Positions 8,655 through 24,549 of a DNA stretch of 45,100 nucleotides are shown piece by piece (the stretch's first letter is position 1; each line of letters begins with the position of its first letter). The DNA is taken from the NCBI RefSeq assembly GCF_003591005.1, contig NZ_QYYD01000034.1:1-45100 (forward strand). Direction: 5' to 3'. This stretch comes from Rhodopseudomonas palustris (GTDB lineage Bacteria; Pseudomonadota; Alphaproteobacteria; Rhizobiales; Xanthobacteraceae). The notes under the pieces were generated by a model. It had not been told where the DNA came from. It worked only from the letters and a program-made list of their open reading frames with translations, and searched no databases. Both the position numbers and the translations under genes were made by a program.

Positions 8655-9929
<1,275 letters not shown>

Positions 9930-9976
9930 TGATCAGCCATCGCACGGACTTCTCCGCGCGAAAGGGCCACGACGTT

Positions 9977-10008
9977 CGGGCTGCCGGGTTCTCTCGGCAG
10001 CCCGTTTT
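9977..10008 (+). terminator. Rho-independent terminator of clpX
   Basis: A perfect 10-bp stem (9977-9986 with 9995-10004) with an 8-base loop is followed by TTTT. It lies about 50 bases past the clpX stop codon. Confidence 0.9.
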
Positions 10009-10071
10009 CGTCTCGCTTGTGACTGCGCGCGCTGCGCGCGGATACCTGACAAACCGGTGCTTTCTCCACGA

Positions 10072-10103
10072 CTTGACACCCCCCGGGGGGATAGCCACCT
10101 AAT
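10072..10103 (+). promoter_or_regulatory. Candidate lon promoter with CCCCCCGGGGGG palindrome
   Basis: CTTGACA (10072-10078) is a good -35 element for either the housekeeping sigma factor or RpoH. The candidate -10 region CCACCTAAT (10095-10103) is weak. The spacer contains a perfect 12-bp palindrome (10079-10090), which would be an unusual DNA feature inside a promoter. The remainder of 9930-10256 contains only the clpX terminator and a six-codon ORF touching lon. Confidence 0.35.
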
Positions 10104-10256
10104 GTTCACGGCGATGACAAGCGTTATCAGGATTCGCCATCAACCCGGACGAGTGGGGCCTAAGCCGGCCGAAACGCGCCGGTACACTCGGCACCTTGTG
10201 GTGGCTGCGCCGGTGGCGGGTCACGGGCAAGGGGGCACAATGAAAAGGAACGGGCC

Positions 10257-12689
<2,433 letters not shown>

Positions 12690-12717
12690 GCGGCCTTCGG
12701 CCTCACGATGCAATCAG

Positions 12718-12741
12718 CGGCGCCCGAAAGGGCGCCGTTTT
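12718..12741 (+). terminator. Rho-independent terminator of lon
   Basis: A perfect 8-bp GC stem (12718-12725 with 12730-12737) closed by a GAAA tetraloop is followed by TTTT. It starts 29 bases past the lon stop codon. Confidence 0.92.
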
Positions 12742-12848
12742 GCGTTTGGCGGGCGACAACGCCCACATGCGAAGCTGTGGGAGGGATCGCAGCCGAGCGA
12801 TCGCGCGGACTTGCGCCGCTTCCCGCCCAGAGGGTAAACAGGCGGGAC

Positions 12849-12925
12849 GGGCGGCTAGCTCAGCTGGTTAGAGCATCTCGTTTACACCGAGAGGGTCGGG
12901 AGTTCGAATCTCTCGCCGCCCACCA
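12849..12925 (+). tRNA. tRNA-Val (anticodon UAC)
   Basis: The acceptor stem GGGCGGC pairs with GCCGCCC and CCA is encoded. The anticodon stem TCTCG/CGAGA with loop TTTACAC gives anticodon TAC at 12883-12885. D and T arms are normal. It marks the left boundary of the accessory region, and tRNA 3' ends are common integration targets, but I found no second copy of its 3' end in the window. Confidence 0.97.
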
Positions 12926-13089
12926 GGTCTCCCTGCATATGCGATCGACGATCCGCCATGGTCGGCACCGCCGGGCCCCGGAGCCGCGGCGCTCGATATC
13001 GGCCGGCTGGCCGCGGGCGCGCCGCATGACATCGCCGCGCGGCCGAACATTCGGATTGAGGTCGTGAGTTGCCACCAATGGCGGTTTGG

Positions 13090-14121
13090 CTAGACGCTGC
13101 GGCTTCCTTCGGCGGCTTTGAGCGTCTGCCCGAGCAGATCGACGCGGCCGCCAAGTCGCGGAATGAATTCTCGTTGATCGAGCCCCCGACTCTCGGAATT
13201 CAGCTGAGCGAAGTAGAGGCTGAGCCAGCCGATCTCCTTCGGTTTCACCTGCTCTCCAAATCTCTTGTCCAGCGTGCGAGCCGACAGATTGTCCACCAGA
13301 TTATCGAGATAGTGCTTGAGCTTTCCGGGAGGCGGAGGCAACTCCGAACCCAGATGCTGAAGGCGATAAAAGATGTAGAGCGGCTGCGCGCCGAAGTAGA
13401 AATAGTGAACGGCGCGCTGACCGCGACCAAGCTCGTGACTCGGTAGGCCTTCATCCGAGATATCGTCGATCGCGTGCTGGTACCAACTCGTGGCGATCGT
13501 CCGTGCCGCGCTGTCCTTGGTGATCGTCGATGCGGCAAGGACACTCATCGCCGCCCACGAGGTCAGATTGTTCTTCGTCTTGCGCTTCTGATAGAAGGCG
13601 ATCACGTCCTTGGTTAGTTTTTCCAACCACGGGCGAATGTGGGGATCGGCCTCCGCGGCGTTCCGCAAATCGCTCTTCAGAATGACGAGGGCCAACGTGC
13701 CGAGCACCCAACCCTGGACAAACCTGCCGTTGGGCGTGTCCGGCTTGTCGAGAAACGCGCTGTTCTGAGCCCAGCTTCGAAGAATTTGAAGCAGGCAAGA
13801 TCGCACGACGCCCGAACGATCTCGCAAGCTTGCGTCCGCCAAAATCGACACGACCGATTGGAAATGGCGGGTCGGTGCAACCAAATAGGTGTTCGTGGCC
13901 CACAGCCTGAAGTCCATCTCCGACCGTGTTTGATCGCCCTTGCGATAAACGCTGGTCGCTTCGATCTGCCGTATGACGGGGCCGACGGTCGGACACAGCA
14001 GGGCGCAGGCTGATCTTTGGCCGAACGCCGAGCCGACCGACGGTGCAACCAACACCAGCGGCCGTAAGGCAACTCGCCAGAAAACGGCTGCCAGACGCGC
14101 GCGGATCCCGTGAAGTTGCAT
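13090..14121 (-). CDS. Alginate-lyase-like (PL5-type) exported protein, catalytic His replaced
   Basis: The protein is homologous over its whole length to the one at 21982-22995; both share CP-x-x-GPVI near the N-terminus, PTRHFQ, and EFIPRL-x-GRVD near the C-terminus. The layout resembles PL5 mannuronate lyases (AlgL). In that family an NNH motif supplies the catalytic histidine; here it reads NNL (residues 184-186), and a second conserved His in the RAxxYH segment is Phe. The fold is probably kept while lyase activity may be lost. I chose the ATG at 14121 (343 residues) over a TTG at 14163; it gives a positively charged then hydrophobic signal-like N-terminus, so export to the periplasm is likely. 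It is transcribed away from the other accessory genes and has no clear terminator. Confidence 0.72.
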   Translation of the reverse strand: MQLHGIRARLAAVFWRVALRPLVLVAPSVGSAFGQRSACALLCPTVGPVIRQIEATSVYRKGDQTRSEMDFRLWATNTYLVAPTRHFQSVVSILADASLRDRSGVVRSCLLQILRSWAQNSAFLDKPDTPNGRFVQGWVLGTLALVILKSDLRNAAEADPHIRPWLEKLTKDVIAFYQKRKTKNNLTSWAAMSVLAASTITKDSAARTIATSWYQHAIDDISDEGLPSHELGRGQRAVHYFYFGAQPLYIFYRLQHLGSELPPPPGKLKHYLDNLVDNLSARTLDKRFGEQVKPKEIGWLSLYFAQLNSESRGLDQREFIPRLGGRVDLLGQTLKAAEGSRSV

Positions 14122-14472
14122 GGGCGAGGGCCTGACTAAATGGCGGGGCCAAGGAAAGCGCAATGGGCATCGGCGGTGCGTCGACGCCTCGGCTCCGAAG
14201 CCGCGCCGCGGAGTGCCGTTGCCGACCGCTTACGTCCTGCGAGCATCCCCTCGATGTCGATCATCGGTCGCGCGGTCGGTGCAGTACAGCCGAAGCAAAC
14301 ACTATCTGCAAACGGGCCGTGCGCTTGGGTCTCAGGCGAAAGCATCATATCGGGAGCGAAGGCGAACGCCGGCTCGCGGGGAGCGGCATCGCTGCAATGG
14401 CGCCCTGGCTCATCCCGTGTTTGCTGAAGAGCATTCCATGCACCCCTGACGCACATCAACGAGCCGACGGAC
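14122..14472. other. Intergenic region upstream of the left PL5-like gene
   Basis: This 351-base stretch lies between two minus-strand genes. No ORF here has family-like sequence or a good ribosome-binding site, and I see no strong hairpin. It presumably contains the promoter of the left PL5-like gene. Confidence 0.45.
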
Positions 14473-15330
14473 TCACCCGACATTCTCTGGCGTTCGGGTC
14501 TCGATGACGTTCGCCCGCAGTGCTGCAACTCTCTCCGTGATCGCCCTGTTCAGATATCTCCACAGGACCTCACCATATTCCTGATTTTTGTGACGGAGAT
14601 TGTGCCTTGGTACTTGGTCCCATTGGGGGGCATGGCCGGACTCGAAGTTCCTCGAGCCGAGAGCTCCCTCGGAGTACTTGGACGGACATCGATATCCGTC
14701 GACGACTACCTCGGCCGGCACATTTAGCACGCTTATTCCATTTTCGCGATGATAGCGCCGGTACAGCTCCGCTTCATTCTCGCAGATCTCCCGCTTGGCG
14801 GCGGGCGCCAGTCTTGACCAGGCGTCGGGTGTGCGAAGCTCGGGGACGATTTCGGCTGCATCTTCCCGAACCATCGGACGCGGCAGGAAGAAAACGGGGC
14901 GCTCCGGATTTCCCGACTGAATCCCTTCGGCCAGCTTGATCGTGCTCGCAATGGTGCGCTTGTAGTCGCAGGAAGCCTTGAACAGCGCGTAGGACATCGG
15001 CGGCGAGTCGATGAACCTCTCGACGGAGTATCCCGCCGCGTTGATGTTGTTCATCTGCCAAGGGTTGACGGGCGGAACCACGCAGGCAACCAGAACAACG
15101 TCGAATGGCGACATATCGAAGGGCCCGTCCGATCCTGTCGTGAGCGCCCAGAGGTGTCTTTGTGCAGGATTCTCTGCGCTCGGACCGCCCAAGCTGACGC
15201 GATCGTCCTCGAACTCCAGGTCATTCAAGATCTGACTCGAGCCGGCAGCAAAACTGACTTCGAAATCCGACTTATCGACCGCTGCGCGAAGGGTGGCAGC
15301 GTGGGAATTTCCAAGTACCAGAAGCTTCAT
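14473..15330 (-). CDS. SGNH/GNSH-motif hydrolase-like protein
   Basis: A 285-residue protein of unknown specific function. It starts MKLLVLGNSHAATL, where GNSH (7-10) sits exactly where the nucleophile block of SGNH/GDSL hydrolases lies, after the first beta strand. The C-terminal part has a His-rich segment (residues about 245-265, including HAPQWDQ and RHNLRHK) that could hold the catalytic His. No signal peptide is evident. The ATG overlaps the stop of the GSCFA gene by four bases (ATGA), so the two are very likely co-translated. Likely role, by inference: removal or transfer of acyl groups on a glycan. The start at 15330 excludes an upstream extension that would lie inside the GSCFA gene. 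Confidence 0.65.
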   Translation of the reverse strand: MKLLVLGNSHAATLRAAVDKSDFEVSFAAGSSQILNDLEFEDDRVSLGGPSAENPAQRHLWALTTGSDGPFDMSPFDVVLVACVVPPVNPWQMNNINAAGYSVERFIDSPPMSYALFKASCDYKRTIASTIKLAEGIQSGNPERPVFFLPRPMVREDAAEIVPELRTPDAWSRLAPAAKREICENEAELYRRYHRENGISVLNVPAEVVVDGYRCPSKYSEGALGSRNFESGHAPQWDQVPRHNLRHKNQEYGEVLWRYLNRAITERVAALRANVIETRTPENVG

Positions 15331-16415
15331 GGAGTCGCTTCCGCGCCCGCGGGCGGAGCAAATGCGGCGAGGATCGCTTCGTCGCAAACGATCTCGTCTT
15401 CGGCTTTCTCCAGATTGTCCAGAACCGAATCCGAGCGAACAGAAGGAGCGAGCGGAGCTATCGGTTCGTGGGCGTGAGCCGCGAAGAAGGTTGCCATCAC
15501 GTGCTCGACGCTCTCCGGGCGAACGTCCCGGAGATTCTGAGTGTAGTGGACGGTGCTGCTCCAGGAATTGGTGATGATCTCGTAGGATGGGAAATAGTCC
15601 ACGTCATCGTAGCGGTCGGCGAGCAAGCCGGCGACGGAGCGCAGCGTGGATTTCGAATAGCTCGTCGCAACCATCACGTGGTTGCTGGTTGCGGTCGCCG
15701 CGAGTGGGACGGGCGAGACCGTGACCAGAAAGCGCGCATTGGGTTGCTGAGCCCTGATGAGTTTGCGACATTCTTCGAAATCGTCCAGGACTTCGCTGAA
15801 ACTCAGATTCCTGAAGCGGTGGCGCGACGGGTCGAACGAGCCCGCGATGGTGCCCGGCGCCGAGGGATAAACCGTCCCCGAGGGATGGTGCTCCCAGACC
15901 TCAGTCAATCCGAATGTGAAGATGAACACGTCCAGCTGGCGCATCAGATCTCGTACTTGCCGCAGGTGGTACTCCCTGTGACGCCGGACCTCGTCTTCGC
16001 TGTCGAAGCCGCTCGGCTCGATCGAAGGGCGCAACGCGTCGCAGAACCCACCGTCCTTCGCCTGCCAGACGGCATCGGTCGGACTGAAGAGCCCGAGCGA
16101 CTCTCTCAGCAATTGCAGCAGCTGTCTGGTCGTGTAGACGTTTCCATAGCGCGCGGAAAACATGCCGAAGCCGAACTGCCCGTATTGCTGTTTCGGCAGA
16201 TTTTCAGGAGCAGGCTCCGCGTCCAGAACCTGGAAGCCTCGTCTCCGCAATTGATGTCCGATGTGCTGTGCAAAGCAGCTGCCGGCGGTCATGATTTTGT
16301 CGCTCGGCAGGATAGGCCATTTCGGGCGATAGATGTTTATCGGCAGCCCGTCCTGACTGAGAGCGCTTTTCCAATAAGCCTTTCGACCCAGGTTATGGTA
16401 GGGATTTCTTGCCAT
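15327..16415 (-). CDS. GSCFA-domain protein
   Basis: A 362-residue protein with the defining GSCFAQHI motif at 45-52, which corresponds to the SGNH nucleophile block. GSCFA proteins are SGNH-like and are commonly found near polysaccharide genes; their exact reaction is not established. Further family-like segments are FTFGLTEVWEH and DFEECRKLIRAQQPNARFLV in the middle and DVRPESVEHVM near the end. I chose the ATG at 16415 because AGGAG lies ten bases upstream and the sequence after it (MARNPYHNLGRKAYWKSAL) looks like the conserved beginning; the in-frame upstream extension does not. It is divergent from the heparinase-like gene across a 299-base region that should hold both promoters. Confidence 0.8.
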   Translation of the reverse strand: MARNPYHNLGRKAYWKSALSQDGLPINIYRPKWPILPSDKIMTAGSCFAQHIGHQLRRRGFQVLDAEPAPENLPKQQYGQFGFGMFSARYGNVYTTRQLLQLLRESLGLFSPTDAVWQAKDGGFCDALRPSIEPSGFDSEDEVRRHREYHLRQVRDLMRQLDVFIFTFGLTEVWEHHPSGTVYPSAPGTIAGSFDPSRHRFRNLSFSEVLDDFEECRKLIRAQQPNARFLVTVSPVPLAATATSNHVMVATSYSKSTLRSVAGLLADRYDDVDYFPSYEIITNSWSSTVHYTQNLRDVRPESVEHVMATFFAAHAHEPIAPLAPSVRSDSVLDNLEKAEDEIVCDEAILAAFAPPAGAEATP

Positions 16416-16714
16416 CTGTGAAGCGCTCCTGACGGGCGTCCCGTTAAGTTGCGAGATCAGACGAGGTTGCCGAGATCCGATGTTCGATACTACCCGACCA
16501 TCGGCGGCAAGCCAAGCAGCCGAAGCGTCTGCAGCAAGAGAGCCATGGTGTCGCAGGAGACAGATAGAATTGTCGCCGAAGCCTGAAGACGCCAAACTCG
16601 GAAATCTCGCGAAGCGGTTGATGGTTCCTGACGGCGCGACACGCTTGGTGTTACGACAGCAACTATCTTGGAGACAGCGCGCCTTCTAGCGCCGCGCATG
16701 TTTTAGGTTAAATT

Positions 16715-18352
16715 GTGCTCACCGAAAGTTTCAAGAACAGAACGATGCAGGAAACTCTCAAGCAGAAAGTCCCGGGATCCGGCGGCGAAGCGACGCAATT
16801 GCAGGCGGAAGATCTCTATATCTGGAGCACATTCAACGACTACGAGAAGCAAACCAACGAAGGCTTTCGGCCGCGAAAGGATCGGCCTGCGGTCCGGCTG
16901 GTTGTGCCCATCGACTGGGCGCTGAGCCCATTTGAAGACTCGAACTGGCTGTTCCATTTGCACAGCTGGCGCATGATCGACCCGATCATGAAGGAATGGT
17001 TCGCGCGGCCGAACTCAGCGCTGGTCGAGGAAATGTGGTCCTACGCCGCCGACTGGTGGCGATATCACAAGAACGGTGGCCGATGTGCAATGAGCTGGTA
17101 CGACATGGCTGTCGGCGTTCGTGCAATCCGGCTGGCTTTCTTCCTGCAACTGCACCGTGATGGCCAGCTCACGCTTTCCGCGGCGGACCAGACCACTCTT
17201 GCTGAACTCGTGAACGCACATGCTGCCGATCTTCGCGACCCGGCCAAGCTTGCCAGATCAAACCACGGGATATTTCAGGCAGTCGGTTACAGGTTGCTCG
17301 GTCGCCAAGCGCCGGCCTGTGAGTTGCTTGCCGATAGCGAGGTCGGATCGGCCGCGTACATGCAGGAGATCTTGGACGCGCAATACACCCCGGAGGGCAT
17401 TCAAAAAGAGCACTCGCCGGGGTATCACATCTGGGTTTCGGGATTGCTCCGTGACCTCCGCGTTGCCGAGTGGTTCGCGGAGGTTCCTCTCATCACGCAG
17501 CGTGTCCAGGCGGCGATCGAGAATCAGGGCTGGTTCATCCAGTCCGATGGCGTGGTGGCCCGGATTGGTGATACGCGCGCCAGAAGGGAGCCGCCGAAAT
17601 CGCTGTCTCCGTCGCCGGGCTGGGAAACGAACGAATACGCGGTCGGGGATTTCTCAAAATCTGGTTGGATCATCATTCGGTCCCGACCTCAGGTGCCGAT
17701 CGAACAGCAATCCATGCTGTTCTTTACGGCCATGGCACACAGCTATACGCACAAGCATGCGGACGACCTCAGTTTCGAATGGTTCGACCGTGGGCGCAGG
17801 ATCCTGATCGACAGCGGCCTGTATTCGTTTCATCGGGACGAAATGAGGCACTATGTGGAAACCTCGGCCGCGCATAATACGGTCGATTTCGCCGATCGCA
17901 GCATAGGGCGTTCGGACACCGCCCCGTACGGATCGGGTCTGGCCGCTCCGCAGTTTGCCGAGGATGGTTTCGTGCTGTCGGGCAAAGTGTGCAAACGAGC
18001 CAAGAAATTCGACCACTCCCGCAGATTGATTTGGAAGCCAGGCCGGTCTTTGGCTATCAGCGACCATCTGGTGGCCGAGAAGACCTACAAATTTGTCAGC
18101 CGGCTGCATTTCGATACGAATCTGACGCTGCACAATCTGGGTGCGGACATCGTCGCCGCATTCCGGGGCAGGGCGATCGCAAAAATCGTCCCTCCATCGG
18201 AAGCATCCGTTCAAATTGTCCGAGCCAGGGAAGGGGATTTGCTCGGCTGGGAATCGCCGGATTATCGGGTGATAAAGCCCGTCAGTGTGATCGAAGCCTA
18301 TCTGCCAGAACAACTGGAAATGATTTCCGAATGGACGTTAACTCTCATTTAG
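16715..18352 (+). CDS. Heparinase II/III-like polysaccharide lyase
   Basis: The 545-residue protein has an alpha-helical N-terminal half and a beta-rich C-terminal half, the layout of the heparinase II/III family. Candidate catalytic residues are visible: Asn183-His184 in RSNHGIFQ, Tyr237 in HSPGYHIW, and His346/His348 in YTHKHADDLSFEW. These parallel the His-Tyr-His set of heparinase II. No signal peptide is seen with either the GTG at 16715 or the ATG at 16745, so location is uncertain; such proteins also occur in bacterial exopolysaccharide clusters. The GTG is kept because AGG lies upstream, but the ATG is possible. A methyltransferase gene follows after 23 bases. Confidence 0.82.
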   Translation: MLTESFKNRTMQETLKQKVPGSGGEATQLQAEDLYIWSTFNDYEKQTNEGFRPRKDRPAVRLVVPIDWALSPFEDSNWLFHLHSWRMIDPIMKEWFARPNSALVEEMWSYAADWWRYHKNGGRCAMSWYDMAVGVRAIRLAFFLQLHRDGQLTLSAADQTTLAELVNAHAADLRDPAKLARSNHGIFQAVGYRLLGRQAPACELLADSEVGSAAYMQEILDAQYTPEGIQKEHSPGYHIWVSGLLRDLRVAEWFAEVPLITQRVQAAIENQGWFIQSDGVVARIGDTRARREPPKSLSPSPGWETNEYAVGDFSKSGWIIIRSRPQVPIEQQSMLFFTAMAHSYTHKHADDLSFEWFDRGRRILIDSGLYSFHRDEMRHYVETSAAHNTVDFADRSIGRSDTAPYGSGLAAPQFAEDGFVLSGKVCKRAKKFDHSRRLIWKPGRSLAISDHLVAEKTYKFVSRLHFDTNLTLHNLGADIVAAFRGRAIAKIVPPSEASVQIVRAREGDLLGWESPDYRVIKPVSVIEAYLPEQLEMISEWTLTLI

Positions 18353-18375
18353 CGTTCGAAGGAAGGAACGAGCGA

Positions 18376-18993
18376 ATGTCGGACGGCATATCAGCGAACG
18401 AATACTGGAATAAGAGGAAGACACAGCTCTACTATCAGGTGGTGCAAGTTCTTTCGCAAAAGCTGGCGGTGCGGGCGAAGTCGGTCGTGGACGTGGGATC
18501 GAACCAGTGTCCCTACCTCGAGTGGTTTCCGGATGTGCCGCATCGAACCTCACTCGATCTGCGAAAGCCCTTCGTCGGACCGGGGATCAAATCGATCAAA
18601 GCGGACTTTCTCGCCTGGGACGCAGGCCGGACTTACGACCTGGCGTTGTGTCTGCAAGTCCTCGAGCATATTCCACGCGCCGATCTAGCGGCGAAGAAGC
18701 TTCTCGACGTGGCGAAGACGGTCGTCGTGAGCGTTCCATACAAATGGCCTGTCGGCACGGTCAGTACTCATGTGCACGATCCGGTCGACGAACAAAAAAT
18801 GCTGGACTGGTTCGGTCGAAAGCCCAATTTTTCGTACCTGTGCCGGGAGGTCAACATAGACGCCGACCGGCTCATTCACGTCTATGAAAGAAACGATCTG
18901 GCCTGGAAGTTCACCAATCAAAGGAACGCGCTTCTCAAACAGATGAAGACGGCCGGAGGTGAGGCTGGTCCGTCGGCCGTAGCGAGCGCGTGA
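18376..18993 (+). CDS. Class I SAM-dependent methyltransferase
   Basis: A 205-residue protein with a Rossmann-type SAM site: VVDVGSNQCPY (37-47) is motif I, SLDLRKPF supplies the acidic residue of motif II, and LCLQVLEHIPR matches the type-11 methyltransferase motif. The substrate is unknown; a sugar or lipid of a surface glycan is plausible from context. The ATG at 18376 is preceded by an AAGGAAGGA ribosome-binding site; earlier in-frame starts would overlap the heparinase-like gene. It is the second gene of the plus-strand pair. Confidence 0.78.
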   Translation: MSDGISANEYWNKRKTQLYYQVVQVLSQKLAVRAKSVVDVGSNQCPYLEWFPDVPHRTSLDLRKPFVGPGIKSIKADFLAWDAGRTYDLALCLQVLEHIPRADLAAKKLLDVAKTVVVSVPYKWPVGTVSTHVHDPVDEQKMLDWFGRKPNFSYLCREVNIDADRLIHVYERNDLAWKFTNQRNALLKQMKTAGGEAGPSAVASA

Positions 18994-19003
18994 GAGCCGG
19001 GTT

Positions 19004-19042
19004 GTCGGCGTGGCTGGCCTTGTATAAGTCACGCCGACTTTA
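19004..19042 (+). terminator. Terminator between convergent genes
   Basis: A 9-bp stem GTCGGCGTG/CACGCCGAC (19004-19012 with 19030-19038) with a 17-base loop is followed by TTTAT. It lies just after the methyltransferase and faces the end of the minus-strand glycosyltransferase, so it may serve the plus strand only. Confidence 0.6.
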
Positions 19043-19156
19043 TCATCGTTGGGACGATGGCCGGACGTGCGTCATTGGTTGCGATGGCGCTGGTGTCCGT
19101 CGTCGATGGTCGAGGGCAGCGCTGAACTGAGACCCGAGGTCGGACGCCGCGTCTCG

Positions 19157-21235
19157 TCAGGTCACCGCGATCTCGTCGGGCGCAACGAACTGCCTGGGGT
19201 TATGGCCGATCGGGATGATCATCGATTTGCCGGCCAGGATGTTGTCGAAATGCCAGCCGACCCAGTTCTCCCAGTATTTCAGACGCACCGGCGAATACCT
19301 GAACTCGTCGAAGGCGGTGACGCCGGCGGTGGTCAGTGAATTCTCATGGTGCAGGCCGAGCGCCAGGACGTCATCCATCTCCTCGACATTGGCAGCGCCG
19401 AAAGAGCTTTTGATCCGCCAGAGCATCTCGGTGTCGGCGCCGGTGCGGACGGAATCGAACACGCCGATCTTGTCGAACACCGCGCGCCTGATGAAGGTCG
19501 ACGCCGGATTTCGGTGAACGAAACCGCCCCCCTTGCGGAGGATCGACTCGCCTTCCGACGTCATCCTGATCCAGCTCGACACGGTCGTGATCAGATCACG
19601 CTCGGTCATCCGCTTCAGGTGCGTCTCCAGTCGTTGCGGATGCATCCAGTCATCGGAATCGTGGAACGTGATGTATTCGCCCTTGGCTTCGACGACGGCC
19701 TGGTTCTTCGAACAATAGGTCCCCATATTGTAGTCGTTGAAGATGTACTTCACGCGCGGGTATCGCAGAGCCAGGTTCTTGATGATCGCGCGGGAATTGT
19801 CGGTGCTGCAATCGTCGACGATGATCAGTTCGAAATTGCCATAGGTCTGGTTGACGATGCTCTTGACCGCATGCTCGATGGTGGCCGCCGAATTGAACGA
19901 CGTCATGACGATCGTGATCAGTGGATGATCGAGCTTCTTGTGGCTGAGCCGTTCGCCGAACCCGAACAGTGAGTTGGAGTCGTCGATGAGAAGGTCTTTG
20001 CCCGTGAGTCCCTGAGACTCGAAATGATTGCACATGTGCTGGCGCCAGGCCGATTTCGATCCGTGCCGGAGTGCAAAGTTCGCGAAGCTCGTATGGACGT
20101 CGGGGTGGGGCCGCTCGCGCTCCTTCAGGCCTCTCAGCAGCCGTACCGCCGTGGCCTGATCGCCGCGCCGATGCAGAAAATCCGCGATCGACACGATCTG
20201 GTTGGGATTGAGCTCCTTTCCGCATTCCATCGAGGTGCGGAGAAGTTGCTCGGCCTTGTCCGGAGCCGTCTGCATGATGAAATCGCCGAGCAGGAAGTAG
20301 GCTTCCCAGTCGAGCGGGTAGGTGGCGATGAGCTCCTCGTATTGCCTGATTCCGACGTCGGCGCGGCCCGATCGGACCGCAGCCAGCGCTCGCAGCTTGT
20401 ACAACCGGTTGATCTCGGATTCCGAGAACAACACCAACTCGCTGGCTCTGGAGTGCAGATTGTCGGCCAGCTGGAAAGCGGTCTCGCTCATGAAGAATTT
20501 GAGAAACACACGCGCGGCAGTGAACGTCACGTAGTCTCTGACCGGCTTCTTGATGCTCGGGTTCTTCTGACACTGGTGATAGAGCCAGATTACTCCAGGG
20601 CCCGGATCCTTTTTATGAAGATCGAGGATCTGTCCGCGCGCGCTCTTGTCCTGGCCCGTGAGAATTTTCTCGAACACCTTGACGGCGGCATCGGTCGCCC
20701 CTTCGGAAAGGGATCGCGACGTACCGAGCTCGACGGCGGGTGCCGCGGGCGTAACAGGCGTGGCGGAAGAGGCCGGAGCGGCAGCGGCGGCTGATGGGGC
20801 GTCGTTGTTCGACTCTGAAGGCGCGGGCGCCGTCGACACGCTGGCGATCGCGTCCATAAAGGCTTCGACACGGCCGCTGTCGCCCAGCGTCTTCTTCAAC
20901 TGTCGGCAGAGGTCGGCATCCGTGACGATGAGCCGCATCAGGTCCGACCAGTTCTTCGTCGTAGACAGGCTCTTGATCGAGGCTGCACCGAGCGGGATGT
21001 GCGCCTTGACCCATCTGATGTCGTCTGCGTCCAGATGCAGACGACGCTCTTCATGAACAGTTTCGCGCCGCTCCAACAGAGGCTCGATGGCGCTCGACCG
21101 GAATTCGGCGCTGGTGACGATGTTGCAGACAGATTCCGTGATCGAGCGAGCCTGCAATTCGATCATTGCTTTCTCGGAGGGTAGCCTTCCGAGCAGGATG
21201 CGCATCAGCGCCACAACGTCCGATTTTGAGGTCAT
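19157..21235 (-). CDS. Glycosyltransferase family 2 protein with helical N-terminal region
   Basis: A 692-residue protein. The C-terminal GT2 (GT-A fold) domain spans about 437-692: ITIVMTSFNSA begins it, IIVDDCSTD gives the nucleotide-binding aspartates, and HDSDDW (525-530) holds the metal-binding DxD. Residues about 1-120 contain a segment like those linked to GT and DUF4214 proteins (LLGRLPSEK ... VTSAEFR). An Ala/Pro/Ser linker (about 125-165) is followed by TPR-like helices (about 240-420). It probably transfers a sugar to a surface glycan or protein. Start uncertain: the ATG at 21235 lacks a well-spaced ribosome-binding site, and a nearby TTG at 21241 is an alternative. It lies 53 bases downstream of the methyltransferase at 21289. 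Confidence 0.8.
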   Translation of the reverse strand: MTSKSDVVALMRILLGRLPSEKAMIELQARSITESVCNIVTSAEFRSSAIEPLLERRETVHEERRLHLDADDIRWVKAHIPLGAASIKSLSTTKNWSDLMRLIVTDADLCRQLKKTLGDSGRVEAFMDAIASVSTAPAPSESNNDAPSAAAAAPASSATPVTPAAPAVELGTSRSLSEGATDAAVKVFEKILTGQDKSARGQILDLHKKDPGPGVIWLYHQCQKNPSIKKPVRDYVTFTAARVFLKFFMSETAFQLADNLHSRASELVLFSESEINRLYKLRALAAVRSGRADVGIRQYEELIATYPLDWEAYFLLGDFIMQTAPDKAEQLLRTSMECGKELNPNQIVSIADFLHRRGDQATAVRLLRGLKERERPHPDVHTSFANFALRHGSKSAWRQHMCNHFESQGLTGKDLLIDDSNSLFGFGERLSHKKLDHPLITIVMTSFNSAATIEHAVKSIVNQTYGNFELIIVDDCSTDNSRAIIKNLALRYPRVKYIFNDYNMGTYCSKNQAVVEAKGEYITFHDSDDWMHPQRLETHLKRMTERDLITTVSSWIRMTSEGESILRKGGGFVHRNPASTFIRRAVFDKIGVFDSVRTGADTEMLWRIKSSFGAANVEEMDDVLALGLHHENSLTTAGVTAFDEFRYSPVRLKYWENWVGWHFDNILAGKSMIIPIGHNPRQFVAPDEIAVT

Positions 21236-21288
21236 CACCAATGCCGCGCTTAGGTCCTTGCCTGAAGGGTCGATCGGGAGACGATGAT

Positions 21289-21873
21289 CTAGATCGGCTT
21301 GCGTCTGATCATCACCTGCGAGCCCTTCCAGAGGACGTCGTATTCGCCGGCCTTGTAATCCAGAAACGCGTTGATGGCGTCGTGCGGCCGCTGATCTGCG
21401 GGCCGATCGAGCTTCCACTGATAATCGTCCCAAATCATGACGCCGCCTTCGCGGAGCATCGCCCAGGCCATGATCGACATCACCAAGGTGGGATCCCGCA
21501 TCTTGCCGGCATCGAGATAGATGATCTGGTAGCGCTTCTTTTGAGCGATCAAGTCGTCAAGGTGAGAAATCGCCTTGCCCTTGAGTTTGGTGACGCGGTC
21601 GCCGAATTCGGCGAGGTTGCTGTCGAAGCGGTTCTCGAATTCGCCGTTGAACAGATCGATGCAGGTCAGGTGGGCTTGGGGGAAGTGGTTGAGGATGAAA
21701 ATCGCGGAGCGACCCTCGAAGCTGCCGAGTTCTAGAAACCTGATCGGCCGCTTAGTGAAGCCTTTGAGGTGCGTGGTCCAATGTGGGACCTTGGAAGTGA
21801 ACCAATCTGAGGTCAGCTCTTTGCCCGCATACCACTCTTCGAGGTTGCGGGCATCTTTTTCTTTCAGCTTCAT
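21289..21873 (-). CDS. Class I SAM-dependent methyltransferase (Methyltransf_24-like)
   Basis: A 194-residue protein. FLELGSFEGRSAIF (46-59) is the SAM-binding motif I, CIDLFNGE holds the motif II acidic residue, and MIWDDYQW is typical of the methyltransferase group found with glycan clusters. The sequence YQIIYLDAGKMRDPTL fits the active-site loop. Substrate unknown. It is upstream of, and probably co-transcribed with, the glycosyltransferase, and divergent from the right PL5-like gene across 108 AT-rich bases. It has no close sequence similarity to the methyltransferase at 18376. Confidence 0.8.
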   Translation of the reverse strand: MKLKEKDARNLEEWYAGKELTSDWFTSKVPHWTTHLKGFTKRPIRFLELGSFEGRSAIFILNHFPQAHLTCIDLFNGEFENRFDSNLAEFGDRVTKLKGKAISHLDDLIAQKKRYQIIYLDAGKMRDPTLVMSIMAWAMLREGGVMIWDDYQWKLDRPADQRPHDAINAFLDYKAGEYDVLWKGSQVMIRRKPI

Positions 21874-21981
21874 AAGTGCGCCTTGTTTCGAGAGCGATAA
21901 TCAGTCGCAAATATGTGACTCAGAACTCGACTCTTTTCAACGAAAAAAGCAATCGCAGGTAGGGATGGGGTCGCTATTCGG

Positions 21982-22995
21982 ATGACGATGACAGGACGAC
22001 GACAGTTAGGGTTAATGTCGCGGTGGTTGATCGGTCTCATTCCGGTAATCGGAGTGATCTTATCATCGTCTGTTGTTAGTGCGTTGGAGTGCCCAAATAC
22101 TGGGCCGGTGATAGCCAAAATTGAGGCATCTCGCGTCTATTCGCGCAACGATCCTACGTACTCCATCGTTGACGCAGCGGCCTACGAAAAGAACAGAGAA
22201 CTGGTCGGGCCCACGCGACACTTTCAAGCCGTCATCTCGCGTTTGGCCGACGCGTCGCAGAGTGGAAGCAGCGAATTAAGTCGAAGCTGTCTGCATCAAA
22301 TTCTTTCGACGTGGGCGCGAGGAAATGCGTTCCTTTCCGCGCCGAAAGCTCATCAGGAAGTACTTGTTCTGACATGGGTGCTTTCGACTGTGGCACTGGG
22401 GGTTGTGAAGGCCGACATGATCGACGAGGTCCGCGCCGATCCTCAGATCATGGCGTGGTTGGAAGAATTCCAGGCGCGGGTCGTTGCCAATGTCGAGGCG
22501 CGTAAGACAATCAACAATCACAATTACTGGGGCGCGCTGGCTGTATTCGTCAGTGGAGTCATTCTCAACAGGCAGGACTTGATCGAGCTTGCAGACGGAT
22601 GGCACACGCAGGCGCTGGGCAACATCGATCAGGACGGATATTTGTCTGAAGAGCTGAAGCGTGGCGCGCGTGCTTATCACTACCACTACTTCGCGGCGCA
22701 GCCGCTGTTCGTGCAAGAGCGTCTTCGGCAGCTTGCCTTTCCAAGAAGGGCTGTTCCAGCTTCCCTGGGGCGATTACTTAATATGCTATCCCGCTCCGCG
22801 CTTCCCGCGCGTTTCCCTGTTCCGCAGCAGCCTGCGAAGGAAACCGGCTGGATGTCGATATACTGCCGTCAGGCTTCCTGCCAGCAGCAGTTCGACGCAC
22901 ATGAGTTCATCCCGCGGTTGGCGGGCCGCGTGGATGTGCTCGATGCGACGATGCAGAAACTGGACACGGCGACGCCGGCTGTTTCGTTGCATTGA
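21982..22995 (+). CDS. Alginate-lyase-like (PL5-type) exported protein
   Basis: The 337-residue protein has a signal sequence (basic start, hydrophobic WLIGLIPVIGVILSSSVV, cleavage near VSA-LEC at 34-37), so it should reach the periplasm. NNHNYW (178-183) matches the catalytic Asn-His of PL5 mannuronate lyases, and Arg230 with the following aromatic segment AYHYHYF matches the second catalytic block, although the position aligned with the family Tyr appears to be Phe237. It could cleave a uronic-acid-containing surface polymer, as AlgL does during export. It is a paralogue of the gene at 13090. In-frame ATGs at 21988 and 22015 are possible starts. Composition is clearly less GC-rich than the flanking housekeeping genes. 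Confidence 0.75.
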   Translation: MTMTGRRQLGLMSRWLIGLIPVIGVILSSSVVSALECPNTGPVIAKIEASRVYSRNDPTYSIVDAAAYEKNRELVGPTRHFQAVISRLADASQSGSSELSRSCLHQILSTWARGNAFLSAPKAHQEVLVLTWVLSTVALGVVKADMIDEVRADPQIMAWLEEFQARVVANVEARKTINNHNYWGALAVFVSGVILNRQDLIELADGWHTQALGNIDQDGYLSEELKRGARAYHYHYFAAQPLFVQERLRQLAFPRRAVPASLGRLLNMLSRSALPARFPVPQQPAKETGWMSIYCRQASCQQQFDAHEFIPRLAGRVDVLDATMQKLDTATPAVSLH

Positions 22996-23226: not shown

Positions 23227-24495
23227 CTACGCCCGCTCTTCCCAGATCATCGCCAGATGCACGATCGTCCGCACCGCGGCTTCCATGTCCTGGCGGCTGA
23301 CCCATTCGAGGCGGGAGTGGAAGGCGTGTTCGCCGGCGAAGATGTTGGGGCAGGGCAGGCCCATGAACGACAGCCGCGAGCCATCGGTGCCGCCTCGGAT
23401 CGAGGTGGTGACCGGCTCCAGGCCGGCGCGGCGGATGGCGTCGCGGGCATTGGCGACCAGCTCGGGGTGGCGGTCGAGCACCTGCTTCATGTTGCGGTAC
23501 TGCGGCTTGATGTCGACGGTGGCGGTCGAGCGCGGGTAGCCGCGCATCACTTCGTCGACGATTGTTCGCAGCAGAGCGCCCTTGTCCTGCAGGCCGGCCT
23601 CGGTGAAGTCGCGGATGATCAGGCTCAGCGTCGCCTGCTCCAGCGTACCGGCGATGCCGATCGGATGCAGGAAGCCGTCGCGGCCCTCGGTCGTCTCCGG
23701 CGAGCAGGTGTCTTTCGGCAGCCGCTCGACGATCGCCGCGGCGATCTTGATGGCGTGTTCGATCTTGCCCTTGGCGAAGCCCGGGTGGGCGCTGACGCCG
23801 GTGATGGTGACGAGCGCGCCGTCGGCCGAGAACGTCTCGTCCTCGATATTGCCGGCGGTCTCACCGTCGATCGTGTAGGCGAAGTCGGCACCGAGCTTGT
23901 TGAGGTCGACCTTGTCGACGCCGCGGCCGATCTCTTCGTCCGGCGTGAACAGGATCTTGAGCGGACCGTGCTTGATCTCGGGATGCGCGATCAGGAAGGC
24001 CGCGGCGTCCATGATTTCGGCGATGCCGGCCTTGTTGTCGGCGCCGAGCAACGTGGTGCCGTCGGTGGTGATGATGTCGTGGCCGATCTGCTGCGCCAGC
24101 GCCGGGTGCTCGGCGAAGCGGATGACCTGGGCCGGATCCGCCGGCAGGACGATGTCGCCGCCCTGATAATTCTTCACGATCTGAGGTTTGACCCCGGCGC
24201 CTGAACAATCGGGCGAGGTGTCCATGTGCGAGCAGAAGCAGATCACCGGGACGTTCGGCTTGTCGGTCGTCGCCGGGATCGTGGCGTAGACGTAGCCGTG
24301 GTCATCGAGATGGGCGTCGGCGAGGCCGAGGTCGCGCAACTCCTGCGCCAACAGGGCGCCGAGAGTCTTCTGCTTGTCGGTCGAGGGGCAGGTCGGCGAG
24401 GCGGGATCGGACTGGGTGTCGATCGCGGCGTAGCGCAGGAAGCGCTCGGTGACGCCATGGCTGAAGGCGATGTCGCGGGTCGGTGAATTGCTCAC
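23227..24495 (-). CDS. pepT: Peptidase T (tripeptide aminopeptidase)
   Basis: Di-zinc cytoplasmic aminopeptidase of the M20B family that removes N-terminal residues from tripeptides. Metal-site motifs are visible: His90 and Asp92 in CSHMDTSPD, the bridging Asp in GADNKAG, the Glu pair in TPDEEIGRG, the Asp in TIDGETAG, and the final His in GEHAFHSRLEW. Length is 422 residues from the GTG at 24495. A longer in-frame form from a GTG at 24549 would begin at the edge of the hup terminator hairpin and adds a non-family sequence, so I prefer the shorter one, though its ribosome-binding site is poor. It follows hup on the same strand. Confidence 0.93.
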   Translation of the reverse strand: MSNSPTRDIAFSHGVTERFLRYAAIDTQSDPASPTCPSTDKQKTLGALLAQELRDLGLADAHLDDHGYVYATIPATTDKPNVPVICFCSHMDTSPDCSGAGVKPQIVKNYQGGDIVLPADPAQVIRFAEHPALAQQIGHDIITTDGTTLLGADNKAGIAEIMDAAAFLIAHPEIKHGPLKILFTPDEEIGRGVDKVDLNKLGADFAYTIDGETAGNIEDETFSADGALVTITGVSAHPGFAKGKIEHAIKIAAAIVERLPKDTCSPETTEGRDGFLHPIGIAGTLEQATLSLIIRDFTEAGLQDKGALLRTIVDEVMRGYPRSTATVDIKPQYRNMKQVLDRHPELVANARDAIRRAGLEPVTTSIRGGTDGSRLSFMGLPCPNIFAGEHAFHSRLEWVSRQDMEAAVRTIVHLAMIWEERA

Positions 24496-24520
24496 GTCGG
24501 GGACCGCCGGACTTGATGGT

Positions 24521-24536
24521 GCCCGGCAGGCCGGGC
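24521..24536. repeat. Short GC hairpin between hup and pepT
   Basis: A perfect 7-bp stem GCCCGGC/GCCGGGC with a two-base loop lies just upstream of the preferred pepT start. Together with the 24550-24579 hairpin it makes two consecutive structures in the hup-pepT gap. It may shape readthrough from hup into pepT. Confidence 0.5.
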
Positions 24537-24549
24537 TTTGCAGCAACAC

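Follow-up and report, generated by a model that had tools for sequence, protein, structure and literature searches.

A strain-specific block of surface-glycan-type genes at a variable lon/tRNA-Val-pepT site in Rhodopseudomonas palustris

Gene content of the block

The window analysed here is a 45,100-nucleotide stretch of Rhodopseudomonas palustris DNA (contig NZ_QYYD01000034.1), and at positions 13090-22995 it carries eight intact genes, lettered A to H, with no internal stop in any of the eight open reading frames. The core left flank is lon (10257..12689, plus strand), which has Pfam Lon domains and is 93-98% identical in relatives, followed by tRNA-Val(tac) (12849..12925, plus strand; ARAGORN). 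The core right flank is pepT (23227..24549, minus strand), with Pfam M20 peptidase domains and relatives that are 80-92% identical. Pfam searches uphold the domain calls that a previous sequence-only reading of this DNA had made, and they bear out its statement that no polymerase, flippase or exporter domain is found among the eight proteins.

Genes A (13090..14121, minus strand, start revised to about 14121) and H (21982..22995, plus strand) encode PL5-like proteins that score 64.2 and 74.5 bits, respectively, for Pfam PF05426 (Alginate_lyase; cut-off 22.2). By sequence comparison they are sister paralogues with 40% identity; this value, together with long branches, rules out a recent duplication. 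The active site of H is complete (N179/H180/R227/Y234). The description of the two genes as alginate-lyase-like paralogues is right, with a qualification for A, which keeps the Asn, Arg, and Tyr residues but has Leu in place of the catalytic His. The best scores of A and H against mannuronate-specific alginate lyase NCBIfam equivalogs are 127.8 and 148.5 (cut-off 366), and Smlt1473 is the nearest solved structure for each protein. Secretion and signal peptides of the block proteins were assessed by hydropathy only, and on this measure both A and H have hydrophobic N-termini, that of H being signal-peptide-like.

Substitution of the catalytic His is not peculiar to A. This residue is missing in 12 of the 39 PL5-like rows in our alignment, 10 of which still have Asn, Arg, and Tyr, and Leu takes its place, as in A, in 8 of the 39. 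Moreover, one genome (G238) has a His-less PL5 gene (L067, with Ile) beside an intact one (L068, with His). In the available part of a study of Smlt1473, the Tyr is proposed to act as both base and acid on D-uronates and the His as base for C5 epimers only, and the H168A mutant is called inactive (PMC8511899). Because His-less rows are common, and because of this proposed Tyr-only route on D-uronates, we have dropped the firm claim that A is a dead enzyme. If our reading of the locus is right, it also provides a small testable case for the role of such His-less PL5 proteins.

Gene D (16715..18352, plus strand), which lies between C and E, encodes a heparinase II/III-like, more specifically heparinase-III-like, protein in which both the C domain (83.8 bits, cut-off 24) and the N domain (29.2 bits, cut-off 22) of the Pfam Hepar_II_III model pass. 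Alignment of D with relatives, to which it is about 27% identical or less, shows that the SNHG, SPGYH, and HKHAD motifs are kept, and the best PDB match to a profile of this alignment is Heparinase III 5jmd (E 1.5e-48). The score of D for the NCBIfam heparin-sulfate lyase HepC is only 18.5, against a cut-off of 600.

Gene C (15327..16595, minus strand) encodes a GSCFA-family protein (Pfam PF08885, 184.7 bits, cut-off 25) with a probable start near 16415, placed by eye from the starts of homologues. The portion of PMC9487903 available to us lists GSCFA as an SGNH-clan family without known activity or structure. The end of C and the start of B overlap by ATGA. Gene B (14473..15330, minus strand, start at 15330) encodes an SGNH-type protein whose Pfam SGNH match is weak (14.6 bits, cut-off 27), the assignment resting on its GNSH motif. 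In the B-family alignment (10 rows, 15-24% identity) this motif is nearly invariant and the C-terminal His253 is present in at least 90% of the rows; the alignment profile has just two PDB matches, both GDSL esterases (E 0.4-0.45). No signal peptide is obvious in B.

The remaining genes encode a TPR protein with a family 2 glycosyltransferase domain (F, 19157..21235, minus strand; Pfam Glycos_transf_2, 113.1 bits, cut-off 23.3), the start of which is revised from 21433 to about 21235, and two methyltransferases. G (21289..21873, minus strand) is of the Methyltransf_24 type (47.2 bits, cut-off 26.3), and E (18376..18993, plus strand, start at 18376) is class I methyltransferase-like with a DVGSxxCPYLEW motif and a sub-threshold match to Methyltransf_23 (22.6 bits, cut-off 27). 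F and G lie on the strand opposite to E.

Composition and distribution among relatives

The lower GC content noticed in the sequence-only reading is real, being 58.4% at 13090-22995 compared to 64.7% on the left and 65.3% on the right, and GC3 is 0.63-0.79 for the eight block genes versus 0.84-0.91 for eight flanking genes. Within the block GC3 differs by unit (0.78-0.79 for F-G, 0.69-0.72 for A-E, and 0.63 for H), which is compatible with several origins.

PL5-like proteins, the F-specific region, and a second complete heparinase domain are each present in none of 15 genus relatives, and a distant GSCFA protein is found in one of the 15. Genes B, E, and G were compared in these relatives as DNA, within the site stretches only, and the block DNA has no match in any of the 15 stretches. 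When positions 12690-13100 are compared with the same stretches using blastn, matches that cross the tRNA stop at 12925-12926, or at 12934 in one relative (L053), so that similarity to most relatives ends at the 3' end of tRNA-Val or a few bases beyond. Of the 12 relatives with a visible lon-pepT site, 9 carry an RND efflux pair there and 2 are nearly empty; other cargo includes GGDEF-EAL genes and, in L061, a type I restriction system. The lon-pepT interval is therefore a variable site in Rhodopseudomonas. In combining odd composition with absence from relatives the block resembles an integrative genomic island, and one of the two patterns that the sequence-only reading had named as refuting it, the same genes in the same order in every relative and core-like in composition, is not found. 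Integration by a tRNA-type recombinase was rejected, there being a single occurrence of the last 26 bases of tRNA-Val in the window (three or fewer mismatches allowed) and no Pfam integrase domain among the eight proteins. Direct repeats seen in the window resemble chance or tRNA similarity.

Linkage of the genes in other genomes

The other pattern named as refuting the sequence-only reading, unlinked occurrence of these genes elsewhere, is largely what is found. The complete eight-gene set is seen in no other genome, and the smaller units that do recur (GSCFA-SGNH, F-G-E, and PL5 with GT2-DUF6270-methyltransferase) lie apart from one another. Matches to both H and D occur together in 2 of 385 genomes of the class, namely the source genome and G449, where they are on different contigs. 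Among 72,556 plasmid records, relatives of H, D, and G are found in 12, 4, and 2, respectively, and relatives of E in none. Consistent with the remark that the combination was not recognised as described, a full-text literature search did not find it.

The GSCFA-SGNH unit is represented by 13 relatives of C (32-48% identity) in the searched genome contigs. An SGNH-motif gene lies directly behind the GSCFA gene in 8 of these 13 loci, 5 of the 8 also having the ATGA overlap. All 13 loci are without PL5, heparinase, or glycosyltransferase genes, and their surroundings are varied and often non-glycan.

F-G-E recurs as a block, without PL5, in two genomes of another genus (L156 and L157), with identities of 36-37% over about 450-475 residues for F, 50-51% for G, and 42-43% between E and the last gene of the block; in both a polysaccharide pyruvyl transferase gene lies about 6-8 kb away or less. 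The window departs from this arrangement, with E on the strand opposite to F-G and D placed between C and E, a point against a shared function. Using tblastn, no relative of E, F, C, D, or PL5 is found near the G homologue in nine neighbourhoods from the class. A G-like gene beside a TPR glycosyltransferase gene on a Lichenihabitans plasmid was rejected as a further example, the glycosyltransferase belonging to family GT1 rather than GT2.

In a third genus (g47), related PL5 genes adjoin a GT2-DUF6270-methyltransferase block at all four loci, with a pyruvyl transferase gene near one locus and NeuB and cytidylyltransferase genes near another. Two of three plasmid PL5 neighbourhoods are annotated. 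The genes there (TonB receptor, GH88, amino-acid genes) are not those of glycan synthesis, which argues against a general link between PL5 and glycosyltransferases. No D-like (heparinase) gene is found near PL5 in the PL5-bearing relatives, and one relative of D, on a Paracoccus plasmid, adjoins wecB, wecC, and a glycosyltransferase gene.

Proposed role and alternative explanations

We consider it probable (roughly 0.6) that the block is a horizontally acquired, strain-specific island for tailoring a surface glycan, built from several pre-existing units at the variable lon/tRNA-Val-pepT site. We infer the uronate substrate, and the joint function of all eight genes from their neighbourhood alone. 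In the cytoplasm, F would attach a sugar to a glycan that is being built and the coupled SGNH-fold pair C-B may add or remove acyl groups; G and E may methylate a sugar or a linked acid. D would act before export on lipid-linked or mis-made chains. Once the uronate-containing chain is exported, secreted H could cleave it by beta-elimination, and secreted A, having lost its His, might bind the chain without cutting or cleave only D-uronates by the Tyr-alone route. Synthesis and export of the polymer itself would fall to core machinery elsewhere. The sequence-only reading had likewise placed polymer production elsewhere, and general supply genes (UDP-sugar dehydrogenase, Wza-type export) do lie elsewhere in the genome; nothing specific follows from them, since UDP-sugar dehydrogenases and Wza are present in 20 of 20 searched genomes. 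Its wider interpretation holds as far as an accessory glycan-type block without polymerase, flippase, or exporter is concerned, but not for linkage of the genes in other genomes.

Since the complete set is found nowhere else, the block may instead have come together by chance at a hot spot for insertions, where the GSCFA-SGNH, F-G-E, heparinase, and PL5 units arrived separately and do not cooperate. This is a serious but clearly less probable explanation, in keeping with the unlinked units, their unequal GC3, and the unrelated cargo (RND efflux, GGDEF-EAL, type I restriction) at the same site in the genus. Against it, all eight genes suit envelope-glycan work, none of them is a transposase, phage, or unrelated cargo gene, and PL5 genes of the same clade again lie beside glycosyltransferase and methyltransferase genes in g47. 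It is very unlikely that the lyases break down external uronate polymers (alginate, glucuronan) as food; their families do include degradative enzymes, and some distant PL5 relatives adjoin a TonB receptor or GH88 gene, but by Pfam none of the eight genes encodes a transporter, TonB receptor, regulator, or enzyme of uronate catabolism, no signal peptide is obvious in D, and a GT2 with two methyltransferases is biosynthetic. No more likely is a phage-defence or superinfection module, acting by receptor masking or as another defence system: surface glycans are phage receptors and in L061 the hot spot is also home to a type I restriction system, yet no protein of the eight matches PADLOC-DB (E 0.001), and a defence system was set aside.

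We think it improbable, if worth stating, that tailoring of a new kind takes place in which H and His-less A, both secreted, act together on one uronate surface glycan that the coupled GSCFA-SGNH pair acyl-modifies in the cytoplasm. Equally speculative is the division of labour that this would entail, in which H would cleave at either C5 epimer, or at every site, and A would either grip the chain or cleave at D-uronates alone.

Comparison with known systems

As a surface-glycan island in itself, the block is ordinary. It shares low GC and glycosyltransferase, methyltransferase, SGNH, and lyase genes with surface-polysaccharide islands of the O-antigen or capsule type, and is likewise in one species only, but differs from them in that genes for a polymerase, a flippase, an exporter, and sugar-nucleotide supply are all missing by Pfam. 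A and H resemble the PL5 lyases Smlt1473, AlgL, and A1-III in Pfam family, H also keeping Asn/His/Arg/Tyr; both nevertheless fall far under the NCBIfam equivalog cut-offs with no alginate operon around them, and A has Leu for His. D shares both Pfam domains and the Asn/Tyr/His motifs with heparinase III-type lyases (5jmd, 4mmh), from which it differs in its lack of an obvious signal peptide, its biosynthetic neighbours, and the absence of a direct PDB match (at 1e-3) for its sequence alone. Finally, C-B has the gene order of the GSCFA-SGNH pairs found elsewhere and the ATGA overlap of five of those eight pairs. If our reading is right, it offers a small testable set for the role of GSCFA proteins, here in a recurrent pairing with an SGNH gene that overlaps by 4 bases.

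Gene content and proposed role of the block

Between lon/tRNA-Val and pepT lie eight genes, A to H, the reading frames of which are all open. Two of them encode PL5-like alginate lyases, A (13090-14121, minus strand) and H (21982-22995, plus strand), and between these are B (SGNH; 14473-15330, minus), C (GSCFA; 15327-16595, minus), D (heparinase II/III-like; 16715-18352, plus), E (methyltransferase; 18376-18993, plus), F (TPR and GT2; 19157-21235, minus), and G (Methyltransf_24; 21289-21873, minus). Pfam assignments exceed the cut-off except for B and E, which fall below it. The GC content of the block is 58.4%, compared to 64.7% and 65.3% in the sequence on either side, and GC3 is 0.63-0.79 for A to H as opposed to 0.84-0.91 for the flanking genes (n = 8). 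The parts of the block are consistent with envelope-glycan tailoring, in which the GT2 of F, methyltransferases G and E, and the C-B pair would act on the cytoplasmic side, with H and A placed outside. General supply genes are located elsewhere in the genome, but they are present in 20/20 genomes searched. Joint action of the eight genes is the weak point of the tailoring reading because the whole set is seen once; an alginate lyase, a heparinase, and GSCFA were not found together in the open-licence literature, in which a single paper mentions GSCFA along with a polysaccharide.

The block in relatives

Searches of the 15 congeneric genomes found neither PL5 (query H) nor the F-specific region in any of them. 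Each of these relatives possesses one heparinase of the D family and none has a second complete copy, the two partial matches on different contigs of G014 probably being a single gene split by a contig end. GSCFA gives one distant, partial match at another location (genome G009; 35% over 130 residues). Block DNA has no match in any of 15 stretches from relatives. The surroundings of lon were compared in 14 stretches from relatives, with the space behind lon being readable in 12; three (L060, L062, and L063) stop short of pepT. An efflux pair (membrane-fusion/AcrB-type) follows lon in 9/12 on the basis of ORF reading, Pfam-checked in L056 only; hardly anything lies past the tRNA in two (L058 and L065), and a GGDEF-EAL-type gene with type I restriction genes occupies the site in one (L061). 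At 9360-16558, L061 carries type I restriction-modification genes together with a RhuM-family gene. Pfam detects no integrase among the eight proteins, and the end of the tRNA occurs only once in the window (last 26 bases, up to 3 mismatches). As a separate observation, lon and tRNA-Val (12849-12925) are co-oriented here and also in G009 and G014, but have opposite orientations in the other 11 relatives where the tRNA was seen (stretches compared: L053, L054, and L056-L066).

Recurring units and the heparinase-like gene

The pre-GT2 part of F has matches in 3/296 family genomes including this one. In the other two (G033 and G098, both of one other genus), F, G, and E form a single-strand block having 36-37% (F), 50-51% (G), and 42-43% (E) identity to the window, with a polysaccharide pyruvyl transferase gene ~6-8 kb from F and no PL5 match in either genome. 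G-like genes are matched in 24/289 class genomes, and tblastn (E 0.0001) of nine such neighbourhoods elsewhere in the class detects nothing related to the rest of the module, which counts against a general link of G with it.

A scan of genome contigs with C gave 13 relatives, mostly from Rhodobacterales but also from Novosphingobium, Methylococcaceae, and Shewanella. An ORF with a GNSH-type motif lies directly behind GSCFA in 8/13 loci, five of these eight having the ATGA overlap seen for C-B in the window, and no other module gene has a relative nearby in any of the 13 (tblastn, E 0.001). B is 15-24% identical to these ORFs; GNSH and a C-terminal His are conserved in the alignment. One published listing gives neither an activity nor a structure for GSCFA (PMC9487903). 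The ORF behind one GSCFA gene (L044, 1714-2535) begins VALLGSCLGS, by eye closer to the DUF6270 start than to GNSH.

D alone gives no structure match at 0.001, but a profile of D and 13 relatives best matches heparinase III structures (E 1.5e-48). Its N-terminus is without a hydrophobic stretch. D-like matches, many of them weak, occur in 26/385 class genomes, accompanied by PL5 only in this genome and G449, where the two are on different contigs. One plasmid relative of D adjoins wecB, wecC, and a glycosyltransferase gene. Two D-like genes are also present on opposite strands of L136 (G694:C6; 8443-10404 and 16325-18202), ~6 kb apart, near ORFs resembling UDP-GlcNAc 2-epimerase and GlmS by eye.

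Kinship and active sites of the PL5-like pair

PL5 is found in 10/391 family and 22/385 class genomes, this genome included in both. A and H are mutual nearest relatives (40% identity; support 100/98). The second PL5 of G238 (L067) groups with them next (97/93), and PL5s of another genus, g47, follow with weaker support (93/71). Four of the five PL5-bearing g47 genomes fall in this clade, and all four clade members are ~1-5 kb from a GT2-DUF6270-methyltransferase block with a GT2 of 1070-1080 residues, which is not the case for the fifth (L076). DUF6270 was assigned by Pfam in one g47 locus and by similarity in the rest; no mention of it was found in the open-licence literature. The L067 gene (G238:C10, 2831-3898, on a 5.8 kb contig) has Ile in place of the His and is flanked on both sides by IS66-type and other transposase-like genes; G238 also has an intact PL5 (L068).

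Alignment shows Asn179, His180, Arg227, and Tyr234 to be present in H. In A, Leu replaces the active-site His, and Asn, Arg, and Tyr are kept. Across 39 aligned PL5-like rows (L073-L077, L081, L116, L124, and others) the catalytic His is present in 27 and absent in 12, with Asn, Arg, and Tyr retained in 10 of these 12 and one of the remaining two appearing misaligned. Loss of the His is seen in more than one branch. The nearest solved structure to the pair is the polyuronate lyase Smlt1473, in which Tyr is proposed to serve D-uronates in the two roles of base and acid, with His being the base for C5 epimers, and H168A is called inactivating (PMC8511899). Given these roles, and the loss of His with the other residues kept, A may function either as a binding protein or as a lyase of restricted action.
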